From IMG/VR virus record IMGVR_UViG_3300045995_000435, positions 1 through 35,806 of that record: a stretch of DNA of 35,806 bases; one strand, given 5' to 3'. Position 1 is the stretch's first letter. Each line of letters starts with the position of its first letter. The DNA comes from a virus. Of this stretch, positions 1 through 9,683 are shown piece after piece. Under the pieces are notes generated by a model. That model was not told where the DNA came from, ran no database searches, and saw only the letters and a list, made by a program, of their open reading frames with translations. The position numbers and the translations under genes are program-made.

Positions 1-1641
1 GTAGCACCATCAATAACGCCAACAGGGGTAAATGAAATCTCTACACCTGACACTTTATACAGAAAGATCTACATTGATAGTAAAGGACGATTAGTTTGGG
101 TTAGCCCAGACAAGTTAACGTCCCCTGTAATACAAAATGCATCAACTTCTGTATGGGGTATTATTAAACCAGGGGATGGTGTCAACATTGATTCAAATCA
201 TGTTATCTCAGTTAGTACCTCGTTTGCAAATCCATCAAATGACGCCACCACCAGCGTTAAAGGTATTCTTAAGGCGGGCACCAACGTCAGCGTCACGGCA
301 GGAGTCATCTCAATACCTAACGCCACAAATTCTAACCTTGGGGTCGTTAGCGCTGGAAGTAATATCTCAATAAGTAGTGGCACCATTTCAGTGGCCACCG
401 CGACCACCTCAAACTTAGGTGTTGTCAGCACAGGCACAAACATAACCAATACCGCGGGGGTCATCTCAATTCCACTTGCATCAACCTCTGTCAAGGGATT
501 GGCGCAGATAGGAACAGGACTAAACGTCAACGCTGGAATCGTTTCATTTGTCGCAAGTGAAATACCACTGGCCACCACATCATCACTTGGAACCATTCAG
601 GTAGGTAGTGGATTGCAGGTAAGCGCTGGAACCGTCGGTGTAAACACATCTTCTTTTCCAATCGCGTCATTGACTACAAAGGGCATCGCGCAGATAGGAA
701 CAGGATTATCAGTGACAGATGGAGTTTTATTTGTAAGCCCATCAGACGCCAGCGCTGGAAATAGAGGCTTCGCGCAGATAGGTGTTGGTTTAGATGTTAG
801 CGATGGGGTCATCTCAGCGCCATCAGCAACCCCTACTTCATTAGGAATAGTTCAAGCAGGTGTTGGCTTTAACGCGGACAATGGCACGATCTCTGTCAAT
901 CCACCTATCGCGACCACGTCAGCGATTGGAATGGTAAAGGTTGGTAATTATCTAAGCGTAAGTAGTGGGTCAATATCAACTACATCCATCGCGACAGGAA
1001 GTACCTATGGTATGATAAAGGTAGGTGCTGGACTAAACGTTAACAATGGGGTACTTAGCACGTCAAACGTTGCAGATGCAACCTATAGTTCAGTGGGAAC
1101 CATTAAGGTAAATCCTACCTATGGACTGACGGTGGACACGACTGGTCTTTTAACCCATGACTCAAGTGACTTTCTAAAGGACAGACAAGGACCCATCTGT
1201 CAAAAGATCTTAAGCAGCGCATCTCGTGCAGGTGAGATATATTGGAACGCATATTGGAGTGGAAACTATCCAATAATTTCCATCTACAGACCTGATGATC
1301 CAGTTGATTATACTTATGTCATTCCAGATAAAAATTATTATCTTCTTTCAGGTAGTGACGTAGGTAGAAGTCTTTGGTTTGACGTCTTTCGTCCTGGAGA
1401 GATTTACTTTGTCTTTAGCCGCGTTGCACAAACAACAGGATATCAGGTTAAGTGGCCGATGGTCTATGAAATGTATCAGGGTACCTTACAAAATGTCACG
1501 CATCCTCCAATATTTCCAACTTATCCTACAGGGTTTACAAAAAATGGTGTTGAATCGTTTTTTTCAAACACCTTGTATAACGCAACGATGGGATTTACCA
1601 TTCTTAGCAATGGTGTAAAAACATACTTTTTTCCAGATTAA
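1..1641 (+). CDS. Tail fibre protein, 5'-truncated by the window edge
   Basis: The reading frame is open from base 1, so the start lies outside the window; 546 codons remain. The visible part begins with a segment containing IYIDSKGRLVWV, close to IDTKGRI in the next gene, followed by about a dozen degenerate repeats of 23-27 residues built as ATTS..G, then VG.GL.V, then ..G.IS. This is the phage tail-fibre repeat style seen in long beta-structured trimeric shafts. From about residue 395 a non-repetitive tip of about 150 residues follows (DRQGPICQKIL onward, rich in Tyr, Trp and Pro), which would be the receptor-binding end. Its repeats and N-terminal segment are paralogous to 1662-3251 but the tips differ. 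The fibre call rests on repeat style; the receptor role is inferred. Confidence 0.85.
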   Translation, partial: VAPSITPTGVNEISTPDTLYRKIYIDSKGRLVWVSPDKLTSPVIQNASTSVWGIIKPGDGVNIDSNHVISVSTSFANPSNDATTSVKGILKAGTNVSVTAGVISIPNATNSNLGVVSAGSNISISSGTISVATATTSNLGVVSTGTNITNTAGVISIPLASTSVKGLAQIGTGLNVNAGIVSFVASEIPLATTSSLGTIQVGSGLQVSAGTVGVNTSSFPIASLTTKGIAQIGTGLSVTDGVLFVSPSDASAGNRGFAQIGVGLDVSDGVISAPSATPTSLGIVQAGVGFNADNGTISVNPPIATTSAIGMVKVGNYLSVSSGSISTTSIATGSTYGMIKVGAGLNVNNGVLSTSNVADATYSSVGTIKVNPTYGLTVDTTGLLTHDSSDFLKDRQGPICQKILSSASRAGEIYWNAYWSGNYPIISIYRPDDPVDYTYVIPDKNYYLLSGSDVGRSLWFDVFRPGEIYFVFSRVAQTTGYQVKWPMVYEMYQGTLQNVTHPPIFPTYPTGFTKNGVESFFSNTLYNATMGFTILSNGVKTYFFPD

Positions 1642-1661
1642 TCTTTACATAGGAATTGACC

Positions 1662-3251
1662 ATGACACAAGCAACAACATCATCTCTTGGAGAGATTCAA
1701 CTTTCTGGAGATCTAACAGGAACAGCCACCTTTCCAGAATTAAAAACAATAAGTGGATTGACCGCTGGTGAATACACCATTCCTAAGGTGACCATCGACA
1801 CCAAAGGTAGGATCACAAGTTGCGTTAATTCAACCGCGGGAGATTTTTACGCGATATTAGGTGCAACGTCATCTACCGCAGGCATTGTAAAGGTTGGCTC
1901 AGGATTATCAGTCGTTGGTGGAGTTATCTCTGTCGACACCTCAACATTTCCAGCGGCGTCAACTACAAATAAAGGCATCGCGCAGGTAGGCACCAACATC
2001 AACGTCGCTTCAGGCGTTATCTCTGTGGCCACCGCGACCTCAAGTGTGTTAGGACTTGTTCAAGTAGGTGCAAATATAACTAATACAGCAGGCGTCATCT
2101 CAATACCTACCGCGACATCAAGTGTGTTGGGACTTGTTCAGGTAGGCACCAACATCAATGTGTCAGCAGGCGTCATCTCAATACCTACCGCGACCACGTC
2201 AACCCCAGGCATCATGCAGGTGGGTAATGGGCTTTCAGTAAGTAATGGGATCGTGTCAACCACCTTACCACTTGCAACGACCTCAGCGCCAGGGATCGCG
2301 CAGGTAGGCAGCGGCCTTTCTGTAAACAATGGAGTCGTTTCATTTGATGGAGGTAGCTTGGCCACCGCGACCACGTCTGCTAAAGGGATCATTCAAATAG
2401 GTAATGGACTTGCCGTGACTGACGGCGTCGTCTCATTTAACATTTCTACCTTGCCAATCGCGTCAACGACCACCAAGGGCATAGTTCAAGTAGGCACTGG
2501 GTTAGGTGTCAGCAGTGGTAGCGTTTATGTACCAATCGCGACCACGTCATCAAGAGGGATAGTTCAAATAGGAAGTGGTCTTATCGTCAGTAATGGCACG
2601 ATATCTCTTGACACCACCATCTTTCCAATCGCGTCGACGACAATATGTGGAATGATATCAGTTGGGGCAGGCTTAAGTATAATCAATAAAGTCTTATCTG
2701 TTAACCTGGCGACACCTTCTGATTATGGGGTAGTAAAGATAGATCAAACCAATGGCTTATCTATCTCTGGTGGAATTCTTTCATTGACCGCCGCCAACAT
2801 GCCTAAGGCGACGTACACGACGGTAGGTGTAGTGTCTGTAAAGTCAGGTGGAGGTTTATCGGTAAGCAATGGTGAAATATCGATTGATTCAAGTACATTT
2901 GTCTTAAAGGCAGATAACTGGAACGTCAATAAGGTCATTGGTACCTCTACGTCATTTGCCAATCCTTCTATATCTTATGCACCTGATCTTTCATCAACAA
3001 ACATCGTTGACATCGTGCCATCAGGAAATATTACCTTGGCCAATCCAATATCTCCTGTCGCAGGAGCGGTCTATTACTTAATCGTTCATACCTCAACAGG
3101 AAAGGTCGTCACGTCCTTTGGAACCAATTACGTGTTTCCTAACAACACCCCACCAACGACCGCGCAGATGAATGTTGGAACGATGATCTTAAGATGTACC
3201 GCGTTAAACAGCAAGCTTTATGTTTCTTTCTGCACGGGGTATGTTGACTAA
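1662..3251 (+). CDS. Tail fibre protein, paralogue of the preceding gene
   Basis: 529 residues. I chose the ATG at 1662 (MTQATTSSLGEI) because AGGA at 1651-1654 is correctly spaced; a TTG six bases upstream is the alternative. The N-terminal 50 residues (SGDLTGTATFPELK, then VTIDTKGRITS) form an attachment-type segment. Residues about 65-420 are the shaft: repeated ATTS..GI, VG.GL.V, NG..S units. About 100 residues of unique tip follow (TSTSFANPSISYAPDLSS to the end). The gene sits 20 bases after the preceding fibre gene. Its stop overlaps the stop of the convergent gene 3248-3751 by three bases, leaving no terminator between them. The function in host binding is inferred from the repeat family; the receptor is unknown. 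Confidence 0.85.
   Translation: MTQATTSSLGEIQLSGDLTGTATFPELKTISGLTAGEYTIPKVTIDTKGRITSCVNSTAGDFYAILGATSSTAGIVKVGSGLSVVGGVISVDTSTFPAASTTNKGIAQVGTNINVASGVISVATATSSVLGLVQVGANITNTAGVISIPTATSSVLGLVQVGTNINVSAGVISIPTATTSTPGIMQVGNGLSVSNGIVSTTLPLATTSAPGIAQVGSGLSVNNGVVSFDGGSLATATTSAKGIIQIGNGLAVTDGVVSFNISTLPIASTTTKGIVQVGTGLGVSSGSVYVPIATTSSRGIVQIGSGLIVSNGTISLDTTIFPIASTTICGMISVGAGLSIINKVLSVNLATPSDYGVVKIDQTNGLSISGGILSLTAANMPKATYTTVGVVSVKSGGGLSVSNGEISIDSSTFVLKADNWNVNKVIGTSTSFANPSISYAPDLSSTNIVDIVPSGNITLANPISPVAGAVYYLIVHTSTGKVVTSFGTNYVFPNNTPPTTAQMNVGTMILRCTALNSKLYVSFCTGYVD
2027..2199 (+). repeat. 78-base near-identical tandem repeat inside the fibre shaft
   Basis: Inside the fibre gene, a 29-base stretch at 2088-2116 recurs exactly at 2166-2194. 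The flanking text TCAAGTGTGTTAGGACTTG at 2040 recurs with one change at 2118. The period is 78 bases (26 codons). Near-identity at DNA level, while most other shaft repeats are diverged, suggests a recent duplication that would change shaft length. Confidence 0.75.
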
Positions 3252-4300: not shown

Positions 4301-4969
4301 TTATAACCATTCTTTCTTGCCATTAATCCAATGCCACTCAATGTTTTCTTTGGCACTGGTCTTTAATTTCTTTCCTTTTTTAGCCTTTGACATGTTTACA
4401 CACTGTTCAGGCGATTTTGCTTTACCTATTTGACTTTTTGACATATTTGCTCGGGCTTCTAAGGTATGCGTTTTTCCCTTTCCGGCTTTTGATAACTTTG
4501 CACATGTTTCAGGAGTAGGAGTTCTTCCCATTCCACCAGCAGATATACTTGCGCGATGTTCAGGTGACAATGGTATTCCTGTTCTCGCTTTTGAAATATT
4601 TTCGCAATGTTCAGGTGACTTTGACTTTCCTAAACTTAAATGGCCAGGATGGTCTTCTCCAACTCTTGCATATGGGTTTTTATGGCTATCTATTTTCCCA
4701 TTGATAAAGAACTCTGACTTATCAACCTTATATAATTTTTGAAGATAAATCTCTACTAACAATGCCTCTTCCCGCGTTTCAAAAGTTAATAACACGTAGG
4801 TTTTTAGTAGTCCTTCTCGATTTGCTCTTTTCCATTCATCAATGTACTTCTTTGACCTTACTGATCCATGATATCCTTTTTCAACGACTTCTATAGAAGA
4901 TGAACCAATATAAAACATTGGTAGTTTAAGGTTGAAACAGATAGTAAGGTAAACGCAATATTTTTTCAT
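4301..4969 (-). CDS. GIY-YIG homing endonuclease with NUMOD3 repeats
   Basis: 222 residues. The N-terminal nuclease domain (about 1-95) has CVY at 5-7 and YIG at 20-22 as a variant GIY-YIG pair, and Glu73 in EALLVEIYLQ at the place of the metal-binding glutamate of I-TevI-type enzymes. Residues about 112-205 hold five NUMOD3-type DNA-binding repeats of about 18 residues (KSPEHCENISKARTG, LSPEHRASISAGGMG and so on). The last residues (NIEWHWINGKKEWL) are an aromatic tail also found in the protein at 6363-6923. The start overlaps the end of 4966-5280 by four bases. Such free-standing enzymes cut cognate DNA lacking the insert and spread by repair. The family assignment is firm; the cut site is unknown. 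The gene is poorer in CG than the structural genes, which fits transfer. Confidence 0.9.
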   Translation of the reverse strand: MKKYCVYLTICFNLKLPMFYIGSSSIEVVEKGYHGSVRSKKYIDEWKRANREGLLKTYVLLTFETREEALLVEIYLQKLYKVDKSEFFINGKIDSHKNPYARVGEDHPGHLSLGKSKSPEHCENISKARTGIPLSPEHRASISAGGMGRTPTPETCAKLSKAGKGKTHTLEARANMSKSQIGKAKSPEQCVNMSKAKKGKKLKTSAKENIEWHWINGKKEWL

Positions 4970-6027: not shown

Positions 6028-6345
6028 TTATTCAACATCAACGTTTTTCGCCTTCTTCTTGCCAGCAGAGATGGCGGCACGGTGCTCAGGCGTAAAGACC
6101 CTTTTCACTCCTCGCTTGGCCGCGGCCATCTTATCACGCGTTTCTTGAGATCTCACCCTACCAGAATTTTTTTCAGAGATGGCGTCCTTGACCTCCTGGG
6201 ATTGCTCATGCTTACCAATCCCACCCTTTGAAATATTGTCCTTGTGTTCTTCTGTTAAGGTCATCCCCATCCTACCCTTTGAGATGTTTGCTCGATGGGT
6301 AGGCGACTTGGGAACACCCTTTTGACCGTGTTGTTTTTCTGTCAT
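6028..6345 (-). CDS. NUMOD3-repeat protein without a nuclease domain
   Basis: 105 residues made almost wholly of about five NUMOD3-type DNA-binding repeats (KSPTHRANISKGRMG, LTEEHKDNISKGGIG, QSQEVKDAISEKNSG, RSQETRDKMAAAKRG, FTPEHRAAISAGKKK). No GIY-YIG, HNH or other catalytic domain precedes them. It has a proper start with AAGGAG 8 bases upstream and lies 17 bases after the stop of 6363-6923, so it is the second gene of that operon. It may be a stand-alone DNA-binding protein, or the remnant of an endonuclease whose catalytic half was lost. The repeat family is clear; the role is unknown. Confidence 0.8.
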   Translation of the reverse strand: MTEKQHGQKGVPKSPTHRANISKGRMGMTLTEEHKDNISKGGIGKHEQSQEVKDAISEKNSGRVRSQETRDKMAAAKRGVKRVFTPEHRAAISAGKKKAKNVDVE

Positions 6346-7690: not shown

Positions 7691-7816
7691 TCCATTCTGT
7701 TTAGACCATTTGAATAGGTGTAGGTATTAAACAGGTGTATCAGTTAAACAGGTAAATCAATTACCCAGGAAAATTTTTAATCAATAGTGAGGAATTATCT
7801 TTGAAGGAATTATAAA

Positions 7817-8920
7817 TTACTTTGAGGTCTTGAGTTCTACGTCATATCCCGTCTTAAGGAATATCTCTTCTTGAAGGGCGAGGCGATTAAATTTGTGGGA
7901 ATATTTTTTATGTAGGCGGAATCCATCATATTCACAGAAAAACCCTACGTTGGTCTGGCCTGTGATCGCGGATAGGTAGGTGATAAAGACCTCTGTGATG
8001 CGCGCCTCTTCCTTCAAGTAAAGGTTCCAATTTGCCTTGTCTTCTGGAACGAGGGGTAGTAGTACCTTCCACATCTCCTTGATGTCTGACTTTAAGTTAA
8101 TGATTTGTTGGTCGTGGCGCACCTGATCTAAGATTAACTTCTGGATGTTATGCGCCACCTTCTGTTTTTCTGTCTGGTTCTTTGGGGTTCGCCAGTTATT
8201 TAAACGGGCCCCATTAAATAATCCTGTGATCCATGGCTTTGCCACCTCTTTATTGACGCCATACCTTGCGGCGATGGTACTTCTAAATTCTGCCTTGTGG
8301 GTCAGGTAAAAGGAGATGTGGGGGAGTGGGTCATTCCCCTCATTGACGTAAAGTTGGTGAAGGAGATTTGGGGCACAGGCGCTGACGTCATAGTCATCCC
8401 AGTAGGCAAACAACTCCTCCTTAATTGGTCGTTCTACACCTATTACCGGGTGATAGTAGCGCCCACAAGGTTTAATCTCATACTTAAATGGTGCATCACA
8501 GTTGAGTTCTGAGTGATAGGAATTTCTTAAATCATCAACGATGGTCAGTCTCTTTGTCATTGGAGGGTCTCCTTGTTGGTTGGTGGCGTTTATTAATTCT
8601 TCATAAAATTCTTTGTTTATCACATATTGCATTGAAATCTTATTTGGAACATATGACCTGTCGGTGATGAATAGACCTGTCTTGAGCCAATGGGCACATG
8701 TACCTGGATGACGTACTGCTCCAGATATCTCTTTGGTAAATTTATATGAGTGAATGATGGCCTTGAAGTCATCGCGACAGTCAAGGTATTTGCGTGCCAT
8801 CTTCAGGGCCTTGCGTGCCAACTTGCACTGGGCACTGGACTGCCCTCTTGAATTGGGGGTTGATATCTTGCGTAAGAACTTAGCGTGTTCTTGAGAGGTG
8901 TAGGATGGTGAGATGTCCAT
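7817..8920 (-). CDS. Small palm-domain polymerase-like protein (A-family / single-subunit RNA polymerase type)
   Basis: 367 residues. Three blocks match the ordered palm motifs of A-family DNA polymerases and T7-type RNA polymerases. Motif A is YDVSACAPNLLHQLY with Asp178. The motif B-like helix is VNKEVAKPWITGLFNGA (222-238) with Lys224, Lys228 and Gly237. Motif C is EYDGFRL with Asp332. The motif B string aligns without gaps to T7 RNA polymerase around Lys631/Tyr639 as I recall it; the Tyr position is Asn236 here. A conserved-looking GRYYHP with a later Arg (153-164) precedes motif A. The protein is far shorter than T7-type (about 880) or Pol I-type enzymes and lacks room for an exonuclease domain. 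Residues 1-120 are Lys/Arg-rich and could bind nucleic acid. AAGGAG precedes the ATG; a 190-base structured leader lies upstream. Polymerase activity, DNA or RNA, is inferred. Confidence 0.6.
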   Translation of the reverse strand: MDISPSYTSQEHAKFLRKISTPNSRGQSSAQCKLARKALKMARKYLDCRDDFKAIIHSYKFTKEISGAVRHPGTCAHWLKTGLFITDRSYVPNKISMQYVINKEFYEELINATNQQGDPPMTKRLTIVDDLRNSYHSELNCDAPFKYEIKPCGRYYHPVIGVERPIKEELFAYWDDYDVSACAPNLLHQLYVNEGNDPLPHISFYLTHKAEFRSTIAARYGVNKEVAKPWITGLFNGARLNNWRTPKNQTEKQKVAHNIQKLILDQVRHDQQIINLKSDIKEMWKVLLPLVPEDKANWNLYLKEEARITEVFITYLSAITGQTNVGFFCEYDGFRLHKKYSHKFNRLALQEEIFLKTGYDVELKTSK

Positions 8921-8952: not shown

Positions 8953-9102
8953 TCAAAATTTCATTATCAGGCGGTCTCAAGGCCTGGGTGGTTCCTAAAC
9001 TACTAAAATAGACCGTCTGCTGAAATTTTGAATAAAAACTGGAGATTTTTACTGACGACGTTGGTTTGAGACCTTTTACAGACGGTCTATTTTAGTAGTT
9101 TA
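8953..9102. repeat. Three interleaved inverted repeats, including a 24-base perfect pair
   Basis: Element A 8953-8963 is repeated inverted at 9021-9031 (11 bases). Element C 8973-8980 is inverted at 9066-9073 (8 bases). Element D 8996-9019 is inverted at 9079-9102 (24 bases, no mismatch). The order A, C, D is kept in the second half, so every pairing crosses the others. AGAC-N-GTCT, itself palindromic, is in both D copies (9010-9018, 9080-9088). The region lies inside the leader of the polymerase-like gene and between divergent promoters. It may be a replication origin, an operator cluster or a pseudoknotted leader. Confidence 0.75.
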
Positions 9103-9108
9103 TAAGAT

Positions 9109-9137
9109 ATTATAACATCTATTTATAAGTTGTACAA
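9109..9137 (-). promoter_or_regulatory. Promoter of the polymerase-like gene
   Basis: On the minus strand: TTGTAC (9137-9132), 17 bases, TATAAT (9114-9109). This is the closest of the set to a housekeeping sigma-70 promoter. Initiation near 9102 would place the whole 24-base inverted repeat at the 5' end of the transcript. Confidence 0.65.
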
Positions 9138-9160
9138 CGTTATTTTATTTCTAACCACCT

Positions 9161-9189
9161 ATGTACTTCTGCCCAGAATGTACTATAAT
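9161..9189 (+). promoter_or_regulatory. Rightward promoter of the same class
   Basis: ATGTAC (9161-9166), 17 bases ending in AGAATGTAC, TATAAT (9184-9189), 26 bases upstream of the ATG at 9216. It is divergent from promoter 9109-9137, with 24 bases between the two -35 elements. Confidence 0.65.
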
Positions 9190-9215
9190 AGTAATATCAG
9201 CTAAAAGGAGTTTTA

Positions 9216-9683
9216 ATGCAGATCAAATTTTACGTAAAGATACCACGCGTCATGAAGAAAAGACACATGAACAAGATTGGCATAGATGGAAAAAAGTCAA
9301 TGATGGTCGATGAATCGTTTATCTCCTTTAAGCAGATGCTTAAAATTTATCGTCTTAACGTAAGAGGTAGAATTCGTTATTATACAAACAACACCTTCAT
9401 CAACATGACCGTCAAGCTCATTGATAACGATTATGAAAAAGATTTTTTGCTGGTGTACGTTGACATAAGTACCGACAACCTACCTCGCTTTGAACGCATA
9501 CTGAACCTAATACTTAACAAGATACCGTTGGACAACATCTTGATCGGTGCCGTCGGTGAAAATTTAACAGAAGAGTTAAAATATTATGAAATCCCAAACC
9601 CTGAAATACCTGTCATTGACCTGCCTACTTACTCTGACCACTTTAGCGACTGCTGCGGATACAGTCTTCATCAATTCAGTTAA
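9216..9683 (+). CDS. Uncharacterised protein, divergent from the polymerase-like gene
   Basis: 155 residues, not recognised. The N-terminus is strongly basic (MQIKFYVKIPRVMKKRHMNK onward), the middle alternates strands (GRIRYYTNNTFINMTVKLI), and the rest is helical then acidic, with CC near the end. No signal peptide is present. AAAGGAG at 9203-9209 and promoter 9161-9189 support the start. The basic N-terminus and divergent position next to a polymerase-like gene and inverted repeats would suit a DNA-binding regulator or replication partner, but no helix-turn-helix can be named. The last 98 bases also encode the N-terminus of 9586-9876 in another frame. Confidence 0.65.
   Translation: MQIKFYVKIPRVMKKRHMNKIGIDGKKSMMVDESFISFKQMLKIYRLNVRGRIRYYTNNTFINMTVKLIDNDYEKDFLLVYVDISTDNLPRFERILNLILNKIPLDNILIGAVGENLTEELKYYEIPNPEIPVIDLPTYSDHFSDCCGYSLHQFS

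Follow-up and report, generated by a model that had tools for sequence, protein, structure and literature searches.

The mini-polymerase gene and its flanking features

The stretch of viral DNA analysed here (the window, all 35,806 nt of IMG/VR record IMGVR_UViG_3300045995_000435) carries a gene for a protein of 367 amino acids, referred to below as the mini-polymerase, which is flanked by an inverted repeat on its upstream side and by a short array of direct repeats on its downstream side (Table 1). The original prediction described this open reading frame as a compact palm-domain polymerase and named D178, K224, K228, G237 and D332 as its key residues; the ORF is present as described (minus strand, ATG start), all five residues are found at the positions given for them, and the general reading is supported by the analyses that follow. 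The protein matches no family in Pfam, PHROGs, NCBIfam or PADLOC, it gives no match to the curated Pfam model of DNA_pol_A (PF00476), and a sequence search of the PDB with this single protein returned nothing.

Table 1. Coordinates of the features at the mini-polymerase locus (positions in the window)
Feature	Position	Strand	Evidence
Mini-polymerase CDS, 367 aa, ATG start	7817..8920	-	ORF list; homologues; conserved residues; AF2 model and PDB fold matches
Predicted winged-helix-like domain (H-E-H-H-E-E-H) at the N-terminus, residues ~30-115	8576..8833	-	secondary structure, two models
R154, counterpart of the Arg that contacts the template in the T/R motif of Pol I	8459..8461	-	invariant in ten diverse members
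Motif A, WDDYDVSACAPNLL (D178; A183 at the Pol I E710 steric-gate site)	8360..8401	-	
Motif B in the fingers (K228, N236, G237)	8204..8257	-	
Motif C, FFCEYDGFRL (D332)	7913..7942	-	
Left arm of the upstream inverted repeat (24 nt, perfect; arms separated by 59 nt)	8996..9019		
Right arm of the same 24-nt perfect inverted repeat	9079..9102		
Iteron-like direct repeat (17 nt, 2.9 copies), close to the gene on its downstream side	7726..7774		TRF; modest statistics

Relatives of the mini-polymerase

Relatives were obtained by three routes, namely tblastn searches of plasmids, searches through the complete records of virus contigs that have related terminases, and alignment scans. The first route led to a protein of the Polaromonas plasmid pH8NP1 (tblastn E 3e-3; pairwise BLASTP 4e-10 across motifs A and B), from which we reached the pW9NP1 protein and relatives in the Microcystis phages LMM01/MaMV, in Vibrio phage GR11A and in Desulfovibrio phage 7757. 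The whole-record searches yielded a homologue of 355 aa (E 2e-24), and the alignment scans added further phage homologues of 346-368 aa, one of them a prophage copy in a genome from the same family as a Rhodoferax MAG. A prophage protein matches the 367-aa protein with a BLASTP E of 2e-20. Of 401 genomes from the family of the Rhodoferax MAG, 11 were matched by a hidden Markov model built from ten members; a class-wide search of 369 genomes gave nothing beyond the prophage already known, and no relatives emerged when the window protein alone was used for back-translated scans. The relatives occur in phages, prophages and small plasmids.

For Gordonia phage Gustav, the match to its annotated DNA polymerase I reached only E 0.1, and a tblastn match in MT837824 (E 0.5) was rejected as a chance match that lies inside a glycine dehydrogenase-like ORF. 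One Polaromonas plasmid relative (WP_181374945.1; L002 6095-7600) is annotated as "Clp protease N-terminal domain-containing protein"; the Clp match falls below the Pfam cut-off, and the protein appears to be a misannotated polymerase. A further branch of 490-540 aa, with HDA rather than HDG in motif C, is found in bacterial genomes of the same family (L046, L047 and L049), and a relative on a Synechocystis plasmid (L010 3377-4913) seems interrupted, with the motifs through the fingers in one ORF and motif C outside it.

Conserved residues

When ten members, phage and plasmid, are aligned, the sole invariant columns are R154, D178, K228 and G237, and the H/Y-D-G of motif C (D332) is nearly invariant; the seven close phage members share R154, D178, A183, K228, G237, D332 and G333 without exception. 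Together with the BLASTP matches, these alignments show that the motif pattern does not arise by chance. Among the catalytic residues predicted at the outset, D178, K228 and D332 are kept in the homologues but K224 is not. The motif list of the original prediction also lacked R154, which we add as the upstream Arg of the Pol I motif "GRLSS..PNLQNIP": in a profile alignment of the plasmid members its column is colinear with this motif of PolA, and several close members read "RLWHPLQN" or "GRLWHGLQNIP", resembling the Pol I sequence. In motif B, the replacement of Tyr by Asn that had been noted holds for the close family, where Asn, Gln or Ala is found, but the plasmid members have Tyr. The Lys of the RxxxK signature that marks the fingers of the transposon-virus polymerases (TV-Pols) is invariant, and the position four residues before it is occupied by Lys in the window protein, by Arg in that of L052 and by other residues elsewhere. 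In the window protein itself, Tyr stands in place of the motif C His, and the QG motif of the plasmid members is without its Gln.

Profile and structure evidence for the fold

Comparison of profiles with hhalign places the family near DNA polymerase I. The plasmid subfamily matches a PolA alignment with E 8.7e-7, colinear across the T/R, A, B and C motifs, and its score of 58.6 compares with a best score of 24.2 among 40 column shuffles. A joint profile matches PolA with E 1.1e-5; the subfamily of the window alone gives E 0.025, which is not significant, and this phage subfamily matches the plasmid subfamily at 3e-24. Nothing was obtained against the T7/SP6 RNA polymerases (E 0.5-0.8), and there was no match to the Pfam model of T7-like RNA polymerases either. 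By sequence profile the protein is not a T7-type RNA polymerase; its nearest kin are the A-family enzymes of the TV-Pol group (PMC2579912). With a wider profile, the top PDB sequence match was human Pol nu, in the right register but with an E of only 0.087; other weak PDB profile matches, such as CAP REPEAT, were set aside as repeat or chance matches.

An AF2 model built from seven sequences (pLDDT 76) contains an A-family palm, as had been proposed, and A-family structures top its PDB matches: only A-family DNA polymerases appear among the first 21 Foldseek matches (E 0.015 and prob 0.92 for the best), and all 50 of the matches listed by VIA are A-family polymerases (Z 9.6-10.8). Residues 130-367 of the model superpose on residues 409-696 of T7 DNA polymerase over 208 residues at 3.5 A. 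The helices predicted at 103-114 and 127-134 are not resolved as a two-helix thumb. We regard the predicted compact palm/fingers fold of superfamily A (Pol I type) as well supported because the profile matches are joined by the structure matches of the AF2 model. Enzyme activity, nucleotide choice and a role at an origin are what we infer beyond the fold.

The protein had also been described as lacking both exonuclease and promoter-recognition domains. The absence of an exonuclease stands, but the second part is doubtful, given the predicted winged-helix topology of residues ~30-115. Winged-helix proteins dominate the Foldseek and VIA lists of PDB matches for this N-terminal domain, with weak scores (Z up to 4.6), and include MarR, PadR, ORC, and replication initiator and terminator proteins. 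A winged helix is likely, though not proven by the fold matches.

Sugar-discrimination sites

The equivalent of Pol I E710 was taken as the fifth residue after the motif A Asp, a count that is also fitted by D169/E174 of CCPol (PMC7581432). This steric-gate site is Ala in all seven close phage members, and in 18 members it is Ala, His, Gln or Val and never Glu. At the site equivalent to F762 the close members have Thr or Asn, and of the others only GR11A has an aromatic residue. Together, the residues at these two sites would favour the use of ribonucleotides without amounting to proof; such use is probable because the steric-gate Glu of Pol I is replaced by Ala.

Repeats beside the gene

The 24-nt inverted repeat, located 75-182 nt upstream of the gene, is the longest perfect inverted repeat in the record at gaps of up to 120 (the next best has 13 nt, and shuffled sequences reach 9). 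Comparable repeats lie upstream of the gene in L053 (22 nt, perfect, 49 between the arms) and L052 (23 nt at 91%, 43 between the arms). The three repeats are unrelated in sequence, stand at similar distances and contain inner hairpins, with RNA fold z-scores of -10.9 (window), -7.6 (L053) and -7.0 (L052). They are absent in L054, L055, L057 and L059, so that three of the seven close members, all examined, have one. On the downstream side, L057 has an array comparable to that of the window (20 nt x 3.5). There is modest support from sequence for regarding the flanking repeats as a possible origin with iterons and an operator. In L052, three 75-nt direct repeats and four 24-nt repeats (9009-9294) begin at the end of the mini-polymerase gene.

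Genomic context

Two related genomes, G419 (34.7 kb) and G014 (33.4 kb), have the structural gene order of the window in common when their ORFs are compared, with different cut points: the end genes of G419 adjoin in G014, and the ends of the window adjoin in the G014 order. All three are listed as linear in IMG/VR; because the cut points differ within one gene order, they probably are complete or near-complete, circularly permuted genomes. In the block between the tail fibre and terminase genes, the mini-polymerase is the only ORF common to the three genomes and in each of them the largest.

No other replication polymerase and no DnaB was recognised in this setting. None of the seven records has a match to PF00476 or PF03796. 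The ORFs neighbouring the mini-polymerase match no family, with no SSB partner or helicase recognised adjacent to it, and the general family searches gave no helicase match in the block of the window, where the largest other ORF has 222 aa. In the two relatives the block includes a nuclease, a T7 endonuclease I homologue in G014 and an endonuclease VII homologue in G419. T7 endonuclease I and endonuclease VII are branch-resolving enzymes that act on replicating phage DNA. Non-homologous nucleases of the T7 endonuclease I type (L055 6275-6736) and the T4 endonuclease VII type (L053 8774-9316) thus lie in the same block of different relatives.

Relatives elsewhere are found beside other replication genes. 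The large phages MaMV and GR11A encode a relative of the mini-polymerase plus a standard PolA, and because they keep a PolA of their own, the mini-polymerase is not merely a PolA substitute. The Polaromonas plasmids that carry a relative have a separate RepA_C initiator (PMC6015842), and therefore the relative cannot be the sole initiator on these plasmids.

Relation to known polymerases

The TV-Pols (Iyer et al. 2008) include a Ma-LMM01 protein in their published list (PMC2579912), and our relative P0004 is a palm protein of Ma-LMM01, matched by phage and not by accession. The mini-polymerase resembles this group in its minimal superfamily-A core, in the conserved Arg, two Asp and fingers Lys, and in a distribution over mobile elements and viruses. 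It differs in that no D5 helicase is recognised adjacent to it, that RxxxK is cut to Lys in most close members, that the N-terminus is winged-helix-like, and that it is found in tailed phages of 33-36 kb which have no other gene outside the virion block in common. Linkage of TV-Pols to a D5-like helicase or a resolvase/integrase is frequent but not universal, and stand-alone forms have been described (PMC2579912). Its fold and motifs place the mini-polymerase in the superfamily-A core, of which the TV-Pol group is a part.

The CCPol-MP/PolA-SSB primases of SCCmec and Bacillota elements (PMC7581432, PMC10061031) likewise are exonuclease-less A-family polymerases of mobile elements, with a distance between the two catalytic Asp of 155 residues in CCPol (D169, D324) and 154 here. 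SCCmec CCPol is also similarly compact (PMC7581432), which tempers the suggestion that the mini-polymerase would be one of the smallest enzymes of its kind. CCPol has E174 and F225 at the sugar-discrimination sites and uses dNTPs, in contrast to Ala183 and Thr232 in the mini-polymerase, and we ruled out a CCPol-type PolA-SSB identity on account of these residues and of the missing Glu in the 18 members.

With Pol I itself (PF00476; T7 DNA polymerase, Klenow) the mini-polymerase has in common the palm and fingers fold and the T/R, A, B and C motifs, but it has no Pfam match, exonuclease, recognisable thumb or gate Glu, and EYDG replaces HDE. Its likeness to single-subunit RNA polymerases of the T7/N4 type consists in the superfamily, the lack of a steric-gate Glu and the K-x7-[Y/N]-G spacing of motif B; it differs from them in giving no profile match and in having less than half their size, and no T7-like promoter repeats were found.

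Proposed role and alternatives

We propose, with a probability of roughly 0.55, that the protein is a phage replication initiator-primase(-polymerase), an exonuclease-less enzyme of the TV-Pol branch that passes its work to the host replisome. The protein would bind sites beside its own gene (the inverted repeat, the downstream direct repeats or both), its two-metal palm site would make the first primer on locally opened DNA, probably from ribonucleotides, and the host replisome would then take over. The hand-over is proposed because neither a DNA polymerase I nor a DnaB or other large helicase can be recognised among the phage's own genes. There are precedents in CCPol-MP, which primes de novo (PMC7581432), and in the TV-Pols, which were predicted to be prim-pols (PMC2579912). 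In favour of this role we count the fold, the profiles, the context as the only shared ORF, the pairing with branch-resolving nucleases, the non-Glu gate and these two precedents. Against it we count the restriction of the inverted repeat to a minority of the close members, the shortness of the iteron-like arrays, the winged-helix Z of at most 4.6, the RepA_C of Polaromonas plasmids, the PolA of large phages, the motif C Tyr and lost QG Gln of the window protein, and the PolA E of 0.025. Sequence cannot decide between a replicase, a primase and a transcriptase; we favour a primase or initiator. Further replication genes may lie among the small ORFs that have no recognised family.

It is unlikely that the protein is instead a miniature single-subunit RNA polymerase for late phage genes, whose winged-helix-like domain reads the promoter. 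The superfamily is that of T7 RNA polymerase, the close family lacks the steric-gate Glu and an aromatic residue at the F762 site, and the window has a long structural operon on one strand; however, it is PolA and not T7/SP6 RNA polymerase that the profiles match, the structure search returns DNA polymerases, and the small plasmids that bear relatives need no late transcription. Moreover, no common 14-mer beyond those in shuffled sequences and no T7-like promoter set was found upstream of the late genes of the window. We consider it improbable, too, that the protein is an elongating replicase, i.e., a primer-dependent DNA polymerase that copies the whole phage genome. Fold and profile are nearest to DNA polymerases and no other phage PolA was detected, but the protein has no proofreading domain, clear thumb, Glu gate, or recognised helicase or processivity partner, and MaMV and GR11A have their relative beside a true PolA.

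Distinctly less probable is a polymerase that uses a structured RNA or DNA hairpin formed by the upstream inverted repeat, as in a retron-like or hairpin-primed replicon. The 22-24-nt repeats of the window, L053 and L052, with their unrelated sequences, similar spacing and inner hairpins, would suit such an enzyme, but the other four close members lack them, and the inverted repeat could be an operator, a terminator or an origin cruciform. Least probable is a catalytically decayed palm retained as a DNA-binding regulator, as suggested by the Tyr for His in motif C of the window copy and its loss of the LQN signature of relatives, since both Asp, the Lys, the Gly and the Arg are kept across highly diverged members.

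Primases usually are DnaG or AEP. CCPol-MP, the biochemically known A-family primase, needs a second protein and uses dNTPs (PMC7581432). The present family suggests a single-chain, phage-encoded A-family primase that may use rNTPs, for phages in which neither a DnaB nor another replication polymerase was recognised. It bears on the way in which folds of the Pol I type acquired their sugar choice and the ability to initiate de novo, a question that T7 RNA polymerase raises as well, and a function is proposed for a gene overlooked by the four family collections searched. Enzymes of this kind have been in the literature since 2008, with one member assayed; what is new is a phage version that lacks the steric-gate Glu, stands without a recognised helicase, has a winged-helix-like N-terminus and is the one non-virion gene common to its phages. 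More tentatively, and with considerable doubt on our part, the tailed phages of 33-36 kb could represent an undescribed kind of replicon, in which one protein of ~360 residues would combine winged-helix origin recognition with A-family RNA priming, working at iterons or a 22-24-bp hairpin next to its gene, without a phage helicase or other polymerase.

Other genes in the window

The accessory block of the window also contains, on the minus strand, a homing endonuclease gene of the NUMOD3/HNH type and a second NUMOD3-like fragment (4301-4969 and 6028-6345). At the left end, two long, repetitive tail-fibre-like genes with DUF5907-like repeats occupy positions 391-3251 on the plus strand.
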